Source of the DNA: Paraburkholderia aromaticivorans
GTDB lineage: Bacteria > Pseudomonadota > Gammaproteobacteria > Burkholderiales > Burkholderiaceae
DNA: 64,000 nucleotides
Direction: 5' to 3'
Assembly: GCF_002278075.1 (NCBI RefSeq)
Contig: NZ_CP022989.1
Span: 434,001 to 498,000, forward strand
The first letter of the stretch is position 1. Every line of letters begins with the position of its first letter. Under the pieces are notes generated by a model, which did not search any database, was not told where the DNA came from, and saw only the letters and a program-made list of their open reading frames with translations. The position numbers were made by a program, and so were the translations under genes. Shown in pieces: positions 15,086 to 34,944 of the stretch.

Positions 15086-16729
<1,644 letters not shown>

Positions 16730-18313: not shown

Positions 18314-18917
18314 TGCGCCGATATCGACGGTTGGCCGTTATCGTTTTGAATACGCGATAGAAAGTTCAAAGTTAAGCGAACCAGACTCCAGATCGCTCAT
18401 ACTGAAATGAACCATAGACTCAGAGTTAGCTGAGAGCATCATCCATCTCGTCGCGAATGGCATGCTGATCGGCTCGGGGTACCCTGGTCGCGGTCGGGCA
18501 GAAGCTCGGCGTGCGGGGTCACCGCGATCAATCCGCCGGCGCCGTACATCGCACGCGAGCGCGAAGCAACGGGCAAACTGCAAAATCCCGTCGCGCTGGT
18601 CGCGGTCATCGCCGCTCCCGGCATTGCGCCTTTCGCTGCGCAGATGGTGACGAGCGACACAAGGCTCGTCGTCGTGCCCGGACTGTTGCGCGACGGCGGA
18701 TTCGGCTGCTTATGTCACGGAAGTCACGGAACGGCGTTTCGTAAGTGCGACTCCTGACAATGATGCGTCACATGCGTCGACGAATTGCGTGACCGCCTCA
18801 CCCATTGCTCGAGTCGTCGCAATCCTCGAACGCCTCCCCGCATCCCTACGAGGCAGCCGCGCGACGTTATTTCAACAATACTTGAAATATCGAAGCCAAT
18901 GCTTTATTGTTCCGGGC
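18314..18917. other. Gap before the ars operon with no gene recognised
   Basis: About 600 bases. Translation in one plus frame around 18520-18720 gives a protein-like stretch (LQNPVALVAVIAAPGIAPF) without start or recognisable family, perhaps a gene remnant. The last 50 bases hold the probable arsR operator. Confidence 0.4.
18869..18888. promoter_or_regulatory. Candidate ArsR operator
   Basis: Inverted repeat ATTTCA (18869-18874) / TGAAAT (18883-18888) with an 8-base AT-rich spacer, centred about 40 bases upstream of the arsR start. ArsR-family repressors bind AT-rich dyads of this kind at their own promoters. Assignment is by position. Confidence 0.45.
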
Positions 18918-19250
18918 ATGGACTCAGATCTCGTCGTACGCGCGCTGAGCGCGCTCGCCCATGAATCGCGCCTCGCGATCTTCCGCCTGTTGGTGGTGGC
19001 CGGACCGGAGGGTATGGCGGCGGGTGAAATCGCCCAGCAGCTTGGGCTGTCCCCTTCCAGCCTGTCCTTCCACCTGAAGGATCTGTCACATGCAGAGCTG
19101 GTGAAGCCGCGGCAGGAGGGGCGTTTCATTATCTACACGGCGAACTTCGACGCCATGACAGGTCTGATCGATTTCCTCACGGAGAACTGCTGCGCGGGCG
19201 CGACCTGTGCCGCGAGCGATCTCCCAAACTGCTGCGCAGGCAAAGCATGA
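18918..19250 (+). CDS. arsR: ArsR-family arsenite-responsive repressor
   Basis: Winged-helix repressor of 110 residues (HTH around AAGEIAQQLGLSPSSLSFHLKDL). It lacks the classical ELCVCDL metal site. Instead it has a C-terminal cysteine cluster: Cys91-Cys92, Cys97 and Cys105-Cys106. This resembles the As(III) site of Acidithiobacillus-type ArsR (Cys95/96/102). As(III) binding should release it from the operon promoter. ATG 18918 is chosen for the canonical N-terminus; longer frames cross the operator. It overlaps arsI by 4 bases and heads the operon. Confidence 0.93.
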   Translation: MDSDLVVRALSALAHESRLAIFRLLVVAGPEGMAAGEIAQQLGLSPSSLSFHLKDLSHAELVKPRQEGRFIIYTANFDAMTGLIDFLTENCCAGATCAASDLPNCCAGKA

Positions 19251-19702
19251 AACGCATTCACATCCATGTTGCGGTTGAGAATCTGAACGACAGCATCCGC
19301 TTTTACAGCGCGATGTTCGGTAACGCCGAGCCCACCGTTCGCAAGAGCGATTACTGCAAATGGGAGCTGACGGACCCCGCGATGAACTTCGCGATCTCGC
19401 AGCGCGGTGCGAAACCGGGTGTCGATCACATCGGCATTCAGGTCGAGACCGAGGCAGAGCTGGCCGAGATGAATGCGTGTTTTAGCGCAGCACAATTGCC
19501 GGTAGTCACGCAGACAGGAACGACCTGTTGCTATGCCCGGTCGGACAAGGCCTGGACGATTGATCCTCAGGGCGTCGCATGGGAGACGTTCAGAACTCTT
19601 GACGTTGCGCCGCTATATGGGCACTCGCATGTGCTGCCGGAATCGTCAACTGCATGCTGCGCACCCGCCGATTCCGTCGTGAACTTCCGGAGCCGCGCGT
19701 GA
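19247..19702 (+). CDS. arsI: ArsI/CadI-family dioxygenase (C-As lyase-like)
   Basis: Vicinal-oxygen-chelate protein of 151 residues. ArsI enzymes use Fe(II) to cleave the C-As bond of trivalent organoarsenicals such as methylarsenite. The metal triad candidates (His5 or His7, His61, Glu113) and the arsenic-binding pair Cys94-Cys95 in TTCCYARSDK are present, matching the spacing in characterised ArsI. A further Cys-Cys pair lies near the C-terminus. It is coupled to arsR by ATGA overlap. Related CadI proteins are annotated as cadmium-induced; the vicinal cysteines and ars context favour ArsI. Confidence 0.88.
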   Translation: MKRIHIHVAVENLNDSIRFYSAMFGNAEPTVRKSDYCKWELTDPAMNFAISQRGAKPGVDHIGIQVETEAELAEMNACFSAAQLPVVTQTGTTCCYARSDKAWTIDPQGVAWETFRTLDVAPLYGHSHVLPESSTACCAPADSVVNFRSRA

Positions 19703-19860
19703 GCACCAGACCTGACTCAATTCTCATTCTCCGCACCGGCAACGGCATGCGCAGCATTGCGGCAGCCGCACTGGTCGACATGGCGGCCCCTGGCGCAATC
19801 CAACGCGAGATGCGCGCCACCGGTGAGAACCACATAGAGGAATCAGATGAGCAGCACTGA
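19699..19860 (+). pseudogene. Decayed LMW-phosphatase-type arsenate reductase fragment
   Basis: The frame opening at GTG 19699 (overlapping the arsI stop) reads SILILRTGNGMRSIAAAALV. This aligns by eye with the N-terminus of thioredoxin-type ArsC (consensus VLFLCTGNSARSILAEAL). The catalytic Cys of the P-loop is Arg here, and the frame ends after about 50 residues by running into acr3. It appears to be the 5' remnant of a second arsC family, distinct from the intact glutaredoxin-type arsC downstream. It may still be translated, as the reading frame is intact and coupled. Confidence 0.6.
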
Positions 19861-20932
19861 TACGGCCATCGGCAATGCACGGCCGGCAATCGGATTCTTC
19901 GAGCGTTACCTGACGGTCTGGGTCGCGCTGTGCATCGTCGGCGGCATTCTGTTTGGGCAACTGCTTCCGCAAGTTTCCCAGGCGATCGGCCGCATGGAGG
20001 TGGCGCAGGTGAATCTCCCGGTTGGCGTGCTGATCTGGGTGATGATCATCCCGATGCTGGTCAAGATCGATTTTGCCGCGATGACCCAGGTAAAGAACCA
20101 ATGGCGCGGCATCGGCGTCACGCTATTCGTGAACTGGTTCGTCAAACCGTTCTCGATGGCCTTGCTCGGCTGGATCTTCATCCGCCACGTGTTTGCGCCA
20201 TGGCTTCCCGCCGACCAGCTCGACAGCTATATCGCGGGCCTGATCCTGCTGGCTGCCGCGCCCTGCACGGCGATGGTGTTCGTCTGGTCGCAGCTCTGCA
20301 AAGGCGACCCGTATTTCACGCTCTCACAAGTCGCCCTGAACGACTCCATCATGATCGTGGCCTTCGCGCCGCTCGTTGCGCTGTTGCTCGGCCTGTCGGC
20401 TATCACGGTGCCATGGGATACGCTGATCATTTCGGTTGTCCTGTACATCGTCATCCCCGTCGTTCTCGCCCAGTTGTTGCGCCGGCATTTGCTCGCGAGG
20501 GGTGAAGCGTATTTCCGGCAAGCCGTCGCCCGTCTCGGCCCGTATTCGATCAGCGCATTGCTCGCGACGCTCGTGCTGCTGTTTGCGTTTCAGGGGCAGG
20601 CGATCGTGGAGGAGCCGTTCGTGATCGCCATGCTCGCGGTGCCGATCCTCATTCAGGTGTTCTTCAACTCTGGCCTTGCGTACCTGCTGAACCGCCGGCT
20701 CGGCGTCACGCACTGTGTTGCGGGACCGTCCAGCCTGATCGGCGCCAGCAACTTCTTCGAGCTGGCAGTGGCCACGGCCATCAGCCTGTTCGGTTTCCAT
20801 TCCGGCGCGGCTCTCGCCACGGTGGTCGGCGTGCTGATCGAGGTGCCGGTGATGCTGTTCGTCGTTAGCATCGTCAACCGCTCGCAGCACTGGTACGAAG
20901 CGAAACACAGTATCGAGGAGCAACCGCTATGA
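19847..20932 (+). CDS. acr3: Arsenite efflux permease, ACR3 family
   Basis: Inner-membrane As(III)/H+ antiporter of 361 residues with about ten hydrophobic segments. The conserved Cys in AAPCTAMVFVWSQL and the Glu in GASNFFELAVATAISLFG are hallmark ACR3 features. It exports arsenite produced by ArsC. A ribosome site (GAGG) lies upstream of ATG 19847. The gene overlaps arsC by 4 bases. It is often named arsB in annotation, although it is unrelated to E. coli ArsB. Confidence 0.97.
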   Translation: MSSTDTAIGNARPAIGFFERYLTVWVALCIVGGILFGQLLPQVSQAIGRMEVAQVNLPVGVLIWVMIIPMLVKIDFAAMTQVKNQWRGIGVTLFVNWFVKPFSMALLGWIFIRHVFAPWLPADQLDSYIAGLILLAAAPCTAMVFVWSQLCKGDPYFTLSQVALNDSIMIVAFAPLVALLLGLSAITVPWDTLIISVVLYIVIPVVLAQLLRRHLLARGEAYFRQAVARLGPYSISALLATLVLLFAFQGQAIVEEPFVIAMLAVPILIQVFFNSGLAYLLNRRLGVTHCVAGPSSLIGASNFFELAVATAISLFGFHSGAALATVVGVLIEVPVMLFVVSIVNRSQHWYEAKHSIEEQPL

Positions 20933-21351
20933 GCGTCACGATTTATCACAACCCCGACTGCGGCACGTCGCGCAACACGCTGGCCATGATCCGCAATGCC
21001 GGGGCCGAGCCGGAAATAATCGAGTACCTGAAGAACCCGCCTGACCGGGAAACACTGAAGAACCTGATTGCACGCGCCGGCTTGACGGTACGCGCAGCGC
21101 TGCGTGAAAAGGGTACGCCCTACGCCGAGCTGGGTCTGGACGATGCGTCCCTGAGCGACGAACAGTTGCTCGACGCAATGATGGACCATCCGATCCTGAT
21201 TAACCGCCCGTTCGTGGTCACGCCGCTTGGCGTGCGCCTGTGCCGGCCATCCGAGATGGTGCTCGACATCCTGCCTGCGCGGCAGAAGGGCCCATTCACG
21301 AAAGAGGATGGGGAACAGGTCGTCGATAGCGAAGGAAGGAGACTGCTCTGA
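20929..21351 (+). CDS. arsC: Arsenate reductase, glutaredoxin-dependent
   Basis: Reduces arsenate to arsenite using glutathione and glutaredoxin. The 140 residues include catalytic Cys11 in [10 protein letters not shown] and the anion-binding arginines in [15 protein letters not shown], as in plasmid R773 ArsC. It overlaps acr3 by 4 bases and shares one base with arsH (TGATG), so the operon is tightly coupled. Confidence 0.97.
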
Positions 21352-22115
21352 TGACGCAGGACATGCCGAACGTCAGCGCCGCGCACCTCGACACGCCTGA
21401 TCTGCAGAAGCTCGAACCGCGCGCGGTCGCGCAACACGCTCCGCGAATTCTGCTGCTGTTCGGCTCGTTGCGTCCGACCTCATATAGCCGGCTTCTCACG
21501 CTCGAAGCTGAACGCATCCTGCGCCATTTCGGCGCGCAAACACGGGTATTCGATCCGCACGGCTTGCCGCTGGTGGACAGCGTGCCGCCCGATCATCCGA
21601 AGGTGGTCGAGCTGCGCAAACTTTCGGAGTGGTCGGAAGGGCAAGTGTGGTGCAGCCCGGAGCGTCACGGCACCCTGACAGCCGTATTCAAGAACCAGAT
21701 CGACTGGCTGCCGCTTGAAAGCGGCGGCGTCCGCCCAACGCAAGGTCGCACGCTTGCGGTCATGCAGGTGTGTGGCGGATCGCAATCGTTCAACGCCGTG
21801 AACGCGCTGCGTATTCTCGGCCGGTGGATGCGTATGGTGACTATCCCGAACCAGTCGTCAGTGGCGAAGGCGTGGCGGGAGTTCGACGCGGACGGCCGCA
21901 TGAAGCCCTCGGCGTATTACGACCGCGTTGTCGACGTGATGGAGGAACTGTACAAGTTCACGCTGCTGGTGCGCGACCGGTCGGACTATCTGACTGATCG
22001 CTACAGCGAGCGAAAGGAAGCGCACCCGGAGCTTGCAACGACCCTCGCGGCCGCGGCCATGAATCAGGAAGCAGTGGCCGCCAATGCGGACACTGAAGAC
22101 AACGAAACGGAGTGA
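21351..22115 (+). CDS. arsH: ArsH NADPH-dependent FMN reductase
   Basis: Flavodoxin-fold protein of 254 residues with the FMN phosphate loop [12 protein letters not shown] and the ArsH-specific [21 protein letters not shown]. ArsH enzymes oxidise trivalent methylated or aromatic arsenicals to less toxic pentavalent forms and can reduce quinones or metals. Together with arsI it suggests the operon handles organoarsenicals as well as inorganic arsenic. The tail after residue 230 is Ala/Glu-rich and variable. Confidence 0.95.
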
Positions 22116-26634: not shown

Positions 26635-27354
26635 TCACACCGCTTTCAAAGCAGGCAACAACCGGTCGAATTCACGCTTCACCACGCCGTAACATTCGCA
26701 CACGCGTGCTTCGAGCCCCGGCCTGTCCAGCACCTCGATGTGGCCATGGCTATAGCGAATCAAGCCTGCGTCCTGTAACTTCAGCGCGGCCTCTGTCACA
26801 CCGGACCGGCGAACGCCCAGCATATTGGCGATCAGCTCCTGCGTCATCTTCAGTTCGTTTGAAGAAAGGCGGTCGATGCTAAGCAGGAGCCACCGGCACA
26901 ACTGTTGGTCGATCGAGTGGTGTCGATTACACACGGCGGTCTGCGCCATCTGGGTAATCAGCGCCTGCGTATAGCGCAGCAGAAGGCGCTGCACCGGGCC
27001 GGCACGATGAAATTCATCTTTCAGAATTTGAGCGTCCAGCCGATACGCCTTGCCTGCGCTTTGCACCACCGCCCGGCTGGGCGTGGTCTCGCCCCCCATG
27101 AAAAGCGCGATGCCGATCAGCCCTTCGTTACCGACAATCGCGATCTCGGCGGACGCACCGTCCTCCATCACATACAGCAGCGACACGATACAGGTGGTCG
27201 GGAAATAAACCTAATTGAGCCGGTCGCCCGATTCGTAGACGACGTTGCCTAGCGGCATATCCACGAGCACGAGATGTGGCGCCAGCCGCTCCCACTCCAG
27301 GTCAGGCAGCACCGCGAGCAGATGATTTTCGTTTTCTTGATGACCTCGGGCCAT
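26635..27354 (-). pseudogene. Crp/Fnr-family regulator interrupted by an in-frame TAG
   Basis: The frame from ATG 27354 encodes a cyclic-nucleotide-binding-fold N-terminus (PDLEWERLAPHLVLVDMPLG, VVYESGDRLN). It then meets TAG at 27211-27213 and continues in the same frame through VYFPTTCIVSLLYVMEDG to a complete HTH (TQELIANMLGVRRSGVTEAA). The expected residue at the stop is Gln (family pattern ...QVYFP), a single C-to-T change. The 183 residues downstream could be made from GTG 27186, but without the first beta strands. The protein lacks the Fnr cysteines. It resembles oxygen/stress Crp-type regulators. Confidence 0.8.
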
Positions 27355-32129: not shown

Positions 32130-32570
32130 TCAAGGCCGTTCAAGAGATTGGGGTAACGCGCCAAGTTGCCGGAACACGGACAGCCAGTCCTCGAGGTGCC
32201 ACGTCTTCGCAATCAGATTTCCGCGCATCTGGTGGAAAGAGTGAATCGCGAATCTGATGTGTTTGGAACTCGCGGCAATACCAAGCAGTGTCCCGGTCTG
32301 AGTTCCGCCGATCTCCGCGCGAACGCCTACCCGGTCGTCATGAACGAGCACGTCGAGAATCGTCACTCTCAGGTCGGGAAGTGCTTGAGCAAGATTGTCG
32401 AACAATTGCACCATCTGGTCGGGTCCCGCCACAACTCCGGCAGGCTCGGGAATCTATTCCCAGTCAGGGGTGACGACCCGTCGCAGCAACGCGACGTTCT
32501 TTTGCTCGAAAGCGCGGTAGAAGTCTTCAATCGCTTGGCGAGCGAGATGTTCGTCGGCGGGCCGGGTCAT
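32130..32570 (-). pseudogene. SnoaL-like ester cyclase/NTF2-fold protein with in-frame TAG
   Basis: The frame from ATG 32570 reads ARQAIEDFYRAFEQKNV and RRVVTPDWE, then TAG at 32454-32456. It continues in frame with IPEPAGVVAGPDQMVQLFD, ALPDLRVTILDVLVHDDRV and a SnoaL-type ending TWHLEDWLSVFRQLGALPQ. Read through, it is a complete 146-codon NTF2-fold protein. Such proteins are ester cyclases or binding proteins of unknown substrate. The start lies in a 519-base gap divergent from the DyP gene. Confidence 0.8.
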
Positions 32571-33089: not shown

Positions 33090-34148
33090 ATGCCCAAAGA
33101 CACCCCAGAGCCGCAAGCCATTCATAACGACGTCACCCGTAGCGCGATCTTTATCGTCGCGACGCTCGAAGCCGGCCCCGATCCGGCAGAAAAGGTGCGT
33201 GCATGGTGTGGCGACATCGCCGCCCTCGTGCGCTCGGTCGGCAAGCGGGTCCCCGCCGGCAATCTATCGTGCGTGTGCGCCTTCGCCTCCGACGCGTGGG
33301 ACACACTGTTCGGCGCTCCCCGCCCCGCCTCCCTGCACCCGTTTCGGGAAGTCGGCTCAGGCGAACGCCAGGCGCCAGGCACGCCGGGGCACATCCTGCT
33401 GCATATTCGCGCCGACCACATGGATCTGTGCTTCGAACTCGCCACGTAGCTGCTGGGGGCACTCGGCGACGCGGTGACCGTGGTCGACGAAGTTCACGGC
33501 TTTCGCTACTTCGATATGCGCGCCATGGTGGGCTTCGTCGACGGCACGGAAAATCCGACGGGTCGCGCCGCTGATGAATTCACCCTGATCGGTGACGAGG
33601 ATCCGGAGTTCGCCGGCGGCAGCTATGTTGTCGTGCAGAAGTACCTGCACGACATGACGGGCTGGAATGCGCTTTCGGTGGAGACTCAGGAACGCATTAT
33701 CGGCCGCACGAAGTTGTCCGATATTGAACTCGATGAAGCGGTGAAACCGTCGTGCTCGCATAGCTCGCTCACCACCCTCACCGAGAACGGCAAGGAAGTG
33801 AAGATACTGCGCGACAACATGCCGTTCGGCAGGCCCGGTTCGGGCGAGTTCGGCACCTACTTCATCGGTTATGCACGCTCGCCTGCGCCGATCGAGCAGA
33901 TGCTGGAAAACATGTTCGTCGGCCGGCCGCCGGGCAATTACGACCGCTTGCTCGACTATAGCCGCGCGGTGACGGGCGGCCTCTTCTTCGTCCCATCGGC
34001 GACCTTGCTCGAGGAACTGGCAGACCGTGATCCACAAGCGGCCGCTGCCGGTGTCGAGCAGCAACCCGACACGGCTTCTTCCGCAGAACCGCATCAAGGC
34101 GGTTCGTTGAACATCGGCTCTCTCAAGGGAATTTCTCAATATGAATAA
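33090..34148 (+). pseudogene. DyP-type heme peroxidase (encapsulin cargo) with in-frame TAG
   Basis: Dye-decolorizing peroxidase. The N-terminal ferredoxin-like domain (MPKDTPEPQAIHNDVTRSAI onward) stops at TAG 33447-33449 after ELAT. The same frame then continues LLGALGDAVTVVDEVHGF and on through the GFVDGTENP (GXXDG) motif, a candidate heme-ligand His in SCSHSSL, and ILRDNMPFG. The C-terminus GGSLNIGSLKG is an encapsulin-targeting peptide. Read through, it is 352 codons, a normal length. An internal ATG at 33516 could give a truncated C-terminal domain keeping the targeting tail. The stop overlaps the encapsulin start by 8 bases. Confidence 0.9.
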
Positions 34149-34944
34149 CCTGCATCGCGAGCTCGCCCCAATCTCCCGTGCCGCCTGGTCGCAGATCGAA
34201 GACGAAGTGGCGCGCACTTTCAGGCGCAGTGTTGCCGGCCGTCGCGTAGTCGACGTCAAAGGCCCGGGCGGAACGGAACTGTCGGGTGTCGGCACGGGGC
34301 ATCAGATCGCGATCACCGCGCCGCAGCAGGGCGTCGTGGCCAAGTTGTCCGAGATCAAAAGCCTCGTCGAGCTGACCGTGCCGTTCGAACTGCAGCGCGA
34401 GGCGATCGACAGCGTCGTGCGCGGCGCGAAAGATGCCGACTGGCAGCCCGCGAAAGAAGCGGCAAAGCAACTCGCCTACGCCGAAGATCGAGCGATCTTC
34501 GACGGCTATCAGGCGGCGGGCATCGGCGGGATTCGCGAAGGTTCGTCGAACCCGCCGCTTGCGTTGCCGGCCGCGGTGAGTGACTATCCGAACGCCATCA
34601 GTAACGCGCTCGAACAGTTGCGGCTTGCCGGTGTGGACGGTCCCTATTCCGTGCTGCTCGGCGCCGATGCGTACACGGCATTGGGCGAGGCACGCGACCA
34701 GGGTTATCCGGTTATCGAGCACATCAAGCGGATTGTGAACGGCGACATCATCTGGGCGCCCGCGCTCGCCGGTGGCAGCGTGCTGTCCGCTCGTGGCGGC
34801 GACTTCGAGTTACACCTCGGCGAAGACCTGTCGATCGGCTACACGAGTCATACGGACACCGTGGTGCGTCTCTATCTGCGCGAAACGCTGACGTTTTTAA
34901 TGTTGACGAGCGAAGCATCGGTTTCAGTCACGCAAGCGGAGTGA
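34141..34944 (+). CDS. enc: Type 1 encapsulin shell protein (linocin M18-like)
   Basis: HK97-fold protein of 267 residues that self-assembles into an icosahedral nanocompartment (about 24 nm in DyP-linked members). It starts MNNLHRELAPISRAAWSQIEDEV and ends with the shell-typical LTFLMLTSEASVSV. It is intact. The gene overlaps the DyP gene by 8 bases, so its translation is expected to be coupled to that of the cargo. Encapsulated DyP peroxidases are linked to oxidative stress. The amber codon in the cargo gene could reduce encapsulin expression by polarity. Confidence 0.96.
   Translation: MNNLHRELAPISRAAWSQIEDEVARTFRRSVAGRRVVDVKGPGGTELSGVGTGHQIAITAPQQGVVAKLSEIKSLVELTVPFELQREAIDSVVRGAKDADWQPAKEAAKQLAYAEDRAIFDGYQAAGIGGIREGSSNPPLALPAAVSDYPNAISNALEQLRLAGVDGPYSVLLGADAYTALGEARDQGYPVIEHIKRIVNGDIIWAPALAGGSVLSARGGDFELHLGEDLSIGYTSHTDTVVRLYLRETLTFLMLTSEASVSVTQAE

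Follow-up and report, generated by a model that had tools for sequence, protein, structure and literature searches.

The genome studied here belongs to a soil-dwelling Paraburkholderia near P. xenovorans LB400 and comprises 8,907,716 bases in 8 contigs. In the window (the whole stretch of 64,000 nucleotides that was analysed), a frame for a DyP peroxidase, the cargo, is followed directly by the gene of an encapsulin shell. The features of this operon are the following:

33090–34148, forward strand: DyP cargo frame, open apart from one in-frame TAG
33090–33449, forward strand: DyP N-terminal piece, closed by the TAG (Pfam Dyp_perox_N, 119 aa, E 1.3e-22)
33447–33449, forward strand: the in-frame TAG itself, at DyP codon 120
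33474–34148, forward strand: DyP C-terminal piece, read from a GTG (Pfam Dyp_perox_C, 224 aa, E 2.5e-59)
33540–33542, 33759–33761 and 33810–33812, forward strand: codons aligned with the catalytic Asp, the haem His and the Arg, respectively (alignment to PDB 8u4z)
34098–34130, forward strand: encapsulin targeting tail GGSLNIGSLKG on the DyP C-terminus (from the sequence)
34125–34128, forward strand: AAGG, Shine-Dalgarno-like site of the encapsulin gene, within the tail codons (from the sequence)
34141–34944, forward strand: family 1 encapsulin shell gene, intact, 267 aa (NF041155, Linocin_M18)

The shell frame is assigned to family 1 by its match to NCBIfam NF041155 encap_f1 (332 bits, cut-off 100) and also matches Linocin_M18 with an E-value of 1.6e-93; both DyP pieces and the shell lie far above the Pfam cut-offs, and the shell lies above the NCBIfam cut-off as well. 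At the protein level, the shell shares 97–98% identity with those of the three nearest relatives and 98% with its P. xenovorans LB400 counterpart. The encapsulin ATG at 34141 precedes the end of the DyP frame at 34148, which places the cargo directly upstream of the shell with an overlap of 8 nt, and the DyP frame ends in a C-terminal targeting peptide. A DNA pattern for tails of the LxIGSLKG type had a single exact match in the genome, the DyP tail itself, and none in the reversed control. We considered a different cargo for the shell and rejected it for exact tails, which were found on DyP only; looser tails would escape this pattern and lie outside the search. A preliminary description of the window, made from its letters alone, had reported a DyP frame with one in-frame TAG, DyP family parts on both sides of it, and an intact encapsulin gene overlapping the tail-bearing frame by 8 bases, and the profile matches and coordinates agree with it on all of these points.

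For comparison, we used G122, the nearest intact relative for DyP, and G142, which we took as P. xenovorans LB400. Over its whole length, the DyP frame has 92% amino-acid identity to the intact 353-residue DyP of G122, with 88% identity between the N-terminal piece and residues 1–119 and 95% in the piece after the stop, and therefore does not arise by chance. The complete DyP reading frame expected of a DyP-class encapsulin is interrupted here at codon 120. In the alignment to 8u4z, frame residues 151, 224, and 241 are the counterparts of Asp 152, His 225, and Arg 242, the roles of which in DyP are described in PMC12140327 (we take that paper to number residues as in 8u4z, given the agreement of the positions). 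All 3 codons lie 3′ of the TAG, and the 119-residue N-terminal product contains none of these catalytic residues. A second DyP is encoded in the same genome, as an open frame of 456 aa on contig C2.

The residue aligned with the TAG is Gln in all 42 distinct relatives (43 distinct sequences including that of the window). The comparison covered 61 of 112 loci, duplicates included (L001–L030, L040, and L083–L112), which by their titles are mostly from Paraburkholderia, the named ones including 3 from Caballeronia, 1 from Achromobacter, and 1 from Burkholderia; the 51 loci left out were 49 more distant ones (L031–L039 and L041–L080) together with L081 and L082. When the loci were aligned pairwise, 57 of the 61 had one Gln between the matched pieces, 3 had the Gln in a shifted gap, and the last was the stop-bearing copy of the window. 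We then surveyed 144 genomes of the genus, the present one included, and found 96 places with a full-length shell gene in 95 genomes. DyP stands directly upstream of the shell at every one of these places, with the same overlap as in the window at 87, and there were no genomes with a full-length shell that lacked an adjacent DyP gene (0/95). Among the 96 encapsulin-adjacent DyPs, 94 are free of internal stops, and the 2 exceptions are the window, with its TAG, and G095, with a TGA. The invariant Gln and the 94 uninterrupted genes indicate that the 2 pieces are one gene elsewhere and that the stop in the window is derived; orthologues thus offer the sense codon and the intact frame by which a nonsense pseudogene is recognised. 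The nonsense change proposed in the preliminary description is supported at the site itself, and the case that it had named as a refutation, relatives that invariably carry the 2 parts as separate genes, is ruled out by the same survey.

The TAG could also be a sequencing or assembly error in a strain whose DyP is intact, given that a single assembly of the species was read directly. Against this, the protein cluster represented by the exact 119-residue N-terminal piece has a 75,663-base contig among its entries, and for the cluster represented by the exact 224-residue C-terminal piece a contig of 45,788 bases is given. The contig of the window measures 4,378,888 bases, so that both pieces seem to be present in other assemblies; as read from the cluster listings rather than from member sequences, at least 1 further assembly, perhaps of the same strain, seems to contain the 2 ORF pieces. 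The change to TAG is a substitution; no homopolymer indel is involved. Internal stops are, moreover, about as frequent here as in G122: over 864 kb, they were found in 13 of 435 aligned genes, versus 10 of 443 in the reverse test, and on these counts we also rejected poor sequence or mass pseudogene formation throughout the genome. The genes counted were those aligned with at least 80% coverage, at least 82% identity, and codon-like substitution, and stops were accepted at 12%–92% of the gene; part of the genes listed as broken may in truth be shadow frames. A first count over 464 kb (15 of 285 genes versus 15 of 292) was judged to include stops near mis-set starts. When 3 genomes were compared, internal nonsense codons specific to the focal genome numbered 4 here with G122 as the reference (256 genes) and 1 with G142 as the reference (247 genes), against 5 (254 genes) and 4 (248 genes) for G122 and 2 (256 genes) for G142. 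The DyP gene stands outside these sums, in the class “ref/out differ,” because the 2 relatives use different Gln codons. Assembly error is thus an unlikely source of the TAG, and we allow an intact DyP in the strain only a slim chance.

Beyond what the preliminary description contained, 2 genes in the neighbourhood of the operon are also broken by a TAG:

26635–27354, reverse strand: frame of a Crp/Fnr-like regulator, interrupted by a single TAG at 27213–27211
32130–32570 (ends approximate), reverse strand: SnoaL-like frame, divergent to DyP, with one in-frame TAG at 32456–32454

The regulator is 97% identical to its LB400 counterpart over 239 aa. The copies in LB400, G025, and G122 are free of stops, those of G025 and G122 being 99% identical to that of LB400, and among the matches listed for the regulator, the copy in the window alone has a stop. 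The SnoaL-like gene, which brings the TAG-broken genes within 7.5 kb to three, is open in LB400 and G122. Other rows of its comparison also show stops, many of them TAA, along with a single TAG in G107 and a single TGA in G122; the TGA is, by its coordinates, the end of the 145-residue SnoaL-like frame of G122, and the query began a few codons before the likely start. Judged from these comparisons, the regulator, the SnoaL-like gene, and DyP appear as a local decay cluster at 26.6–34.1 kb, of which the DyP lesion would be one part. The listed blastn blocks against G122 have 81.5–87.0% identity between 26.6 and 38.0 kb, compared with a mean of 92.7% for the longer blocks over 371 kb, and this lower identity, together with several failing genes, places the DyP lesion in a fast-changing stretch.

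The second and third TAG-broken genes raised the possibility of amber recoding or suppression. At the operon, a suppressor tRNA or a leaky stop would let the TAG be read through and full DyP be made and loaded, an outcome that the preliminary description had listed and with which the intact, conserved frame after the TAG and the single TAG in each of the 2 neighbouring genes would agree. Nevertheless, the anticodons CTA, TTA, and TCA are absent from the 63 tRNA matches above the Rfam cut-off, all of which were typed by ARAGORN (150 of 155 first-look candidates were scored). The internal stops in the 864 kb are 7 TGA, 5 TAG, and 4 TAA, against 8 TGA, 3 TAG, and 2 TAA in the reverse test with G122. 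With no stop-reading tRNA among those typed and no clear amber excess over this distance, we rejected recoding and suppression, and we regard full-length DyP through read-through as very unlikely. The conservation of the frame after the TAG is accounted for by the recency of the lesion.

How recent the lesion is can be judged from the substitutions on its 2 sides. Between the window and G122, dN/dS is 0.19 for the N-terminal piece, 0.06 for the C-terminal piece, and 0.04 for the shell; the corresponding values for the intact pair G122–G142 are 0.15, 0.11, and 0.03. The similarity of the 2 sets places the stop late. Across 4 genomes (window, G122, G142, and G025), codons specific to the window showed synonymous to nonsynonymous ratios of 9:5 before the stop, 24:4 after it, and 30:2 in the shell, and those specific to G122 showed ratios of 12:3, 17:2, and 18:3, respectively. 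These patterns indicate that purifying selection acted on DyP through most of the period after the divergence from G122. In the N-terminal piece, His is found at position 101, which is Asp in 42 of 42 relatives, and at position 12, which is Cys in 37 of 42; these replacements at strongly kept positions weakly suggest that constraint is beginning to slip. Private residues in this piece number 3 in the window, and several of the 43 aligned sequences have more.

In our view, the locus is a DyP-class encapsulin operon of family 1 in which a recent nonsense change has made a pseudogene of the cargo gene, a reading to which we assign a probability of roughly 0.78 on the sequence comparisons above; the event looks like ordinary recent gene decay. 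Translation would stop after 119 residues, before every catalytic residue, and would leave no functional full-length DyP. Synthesis of the C-terminal piece would depend on a restart, and the product would be missing a whole domain; it is probably either not made or unstable. Translation of the shell would probably be reduced, because ribosomes that halt at the TAG stop short of the 8-nt overlap and no longer cross it. It would probably not be abolished, because the AAGG site of the shell gene lies in the tail codons and would permit an independent start. Such a site is general in these operons: AAGGG, AAGGA, or AAAGG occurs within 22 nt before the overlapping ATG at all 38 distinct overlap loci, that of the window included (the overlap is present in 38 of 43 distinct loci, and these 38 were covered). 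Any shell that assembles would be empty, and we infer that an empty or scarce shell is the likeliest outcome. This expectation follows the case of Mycobacterium tuberculosis, in which a transposon insertion in dyp is described in PMC8635971 as removing both DyP and the shell, and the shell expressed alone as forming empty compartments. RNA structure at the shell start was unremarkable (z −0.15), and a scan of the operon found no promoter-like sites (0.4 expected) and 3 terminator-like sites (2.2 expected). A search of the window for RNA families gave no matches.

Translation might alternatively restart past the TAG, at the GTG at 33474 or the ATG at 33516, and deliver to the shell a C-terminal piece with some function. 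The preliminary description had placed the restart at the ATG, which is indeed present and in frame; it is not the first candidate, being preceded by the GTG. The piece would carry the counterparts of Asp, His, and Arg as well as the targeting tail and is strongly constrained, and the absence of decay in it (24 synonymous changes and 4 nonsynonymous ones) may reflect a retained role. The same constraint is explained by the recency of the stop. In a simple test, no Shine-Dalgarno-like match was found at the restart codons 33474, 33516, 33525, and 33528, and 33480 had only a GGTGA at a spacing of 2 nt; this is weak evidence, because the DyP start at 33090 also has none in the same test. The N-terminal DyP domain would, in addition, be missing from the piece in its entirety, and PMC12140327 describes the hexamer as the likely competent state of DyPs inside encapsulins. 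We consider a functional, loaded fragment improbable.

A related possibility is that the shell, either cargo-free or loaded with a restarted DyP fragment, is kept and expressed, and that the 3 ambers represent one linked inactivation of a stress module and not accidents. The local cluster holds 3 of the 5 internal TAGs in the 864 kb, and taking TAG as 5/16 or 3/13 of internal stops, the coincidence that all 3 local stops are TAG is about 1–3%, a point against the pseudogene reading. We hold a linked inactivation with a retained shell to be improbable.

Encapsulin shells are usually treated as dedicated containers for adjacently encoded cargo. With a probable nonsense pseudogene as its cargo gene, the operon in the window can be set beside the family 1 DyP encapsulin operons of Brevibacterium, Mycobacterium, enterobacteria, and Rhodococcus (DypB), with which it has in common the shell family, the upstream DyP, the C-terminal tail, and the Asp, His, and Arg counterparts. 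It differs from them in the TAG that interrupts the cargo frame ahead of every catalytic residue, and peroxidase function is expected to be lost. The placement of DyP directly upstream of the shell gene follows the operon rule given in PMC8346489. The M. tuberculosis dyp insertion resembles the window in that the upstream cargo gene is disrupted; that case, as presented in PMC8635971, is a laboratory insertion, whereas the window has a natural change of a single codon, and a transposon may exert stronger polar effects than a nonsense codon does. Literature searches, with subscription journals mostly outside their coverage, found no paper on a stop-broken encapsulin cargo among those listed. 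In sum, the lesion adds a further example of an event of a familiar type, in a system already described.

A second species of the genus presents the same state by a different lesion. In G095 (Paraburkholderia sp. BL25I1N1; L022, L125, and L264), an intact encapsulin gene likewise stands beside a DyP with one in-frame stop; this stop is a TGA at DyP codon 39, and thus differs from the TAG of the window in both site and codon. Cargo loss with an intact shell therefore recurs in the genus, as far as the 2 reading frames indicate. The 2 strains offer natural cargo-loss backgrounds in which the use of the shell without its enzyme, and the pace at which the shell decays after its cargo, could be followed.

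The converse, a DyP that lacks a full-length shell and often the tail as well, was found in 11 of the 144 genomes (DyP above 500 bits; L258–L263 and L265–L269). In 7 of these 11 (G032, G035, G056, G079, G082, G092, and G127), the aligned targeting tail is absent, G033 keeps a variant tail with no shell match in the 4 kb read, and G143, G139, and G119 have tails or tail remnants beside shell remnants. The 7 genomes without an aligned tail suggest the loss of the shell before that of the tail. Stops within the DyP are also found among these shell-less genomes: G079, with a DyP above 500 bits, has a TAG 3′ of the catalytic core, and G032 has a TGA past 315 aligned stop-free residues. In G119 (L140 and L263), a DyP much like that of G095 has a TAG in the linker and an altered tail motif and is accompanied by a stop-bearing shell remnant. 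As a raw count in one genus, with kin and incomplete assemblies included, cargo seems to outlive shell more often than the reverse.

Beyond the survey, 3 of 72,556 plasmid records matched, at 60–80% identity, and none covered 80% of the query; in a DNA search, 9 of 21 genomes chosen as relatives (the present one included) matched, the best non-self match having 79% identity.

Several other features of the window were noted. Between 27723 and 28629 on the reverse strand lies a histidine-kinase remnant, in which HisKA falls just below the cut-off on one frame; a 287-residue frame of G122 matches it in 2 overlapping pieces, and the remnant is hence probably frameshifted. An arsenic-like cluster at 18789–22115 on the forward strand comprises an ArsR-type regulator, an SBF-family transporter, ArsC, and an FMN reductase, and around it, from 17.2 to 26.6 kb, no match longer than 400 nt was among those listed in the G122 stretch. 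Finally, a chaperonin of the Cpn60 family (546 aa, 15086–16726, reverse strand) has about 99% identity to its counterparts in G122 and LB400 and lies in a stretch that is more conserved than what flanks it.
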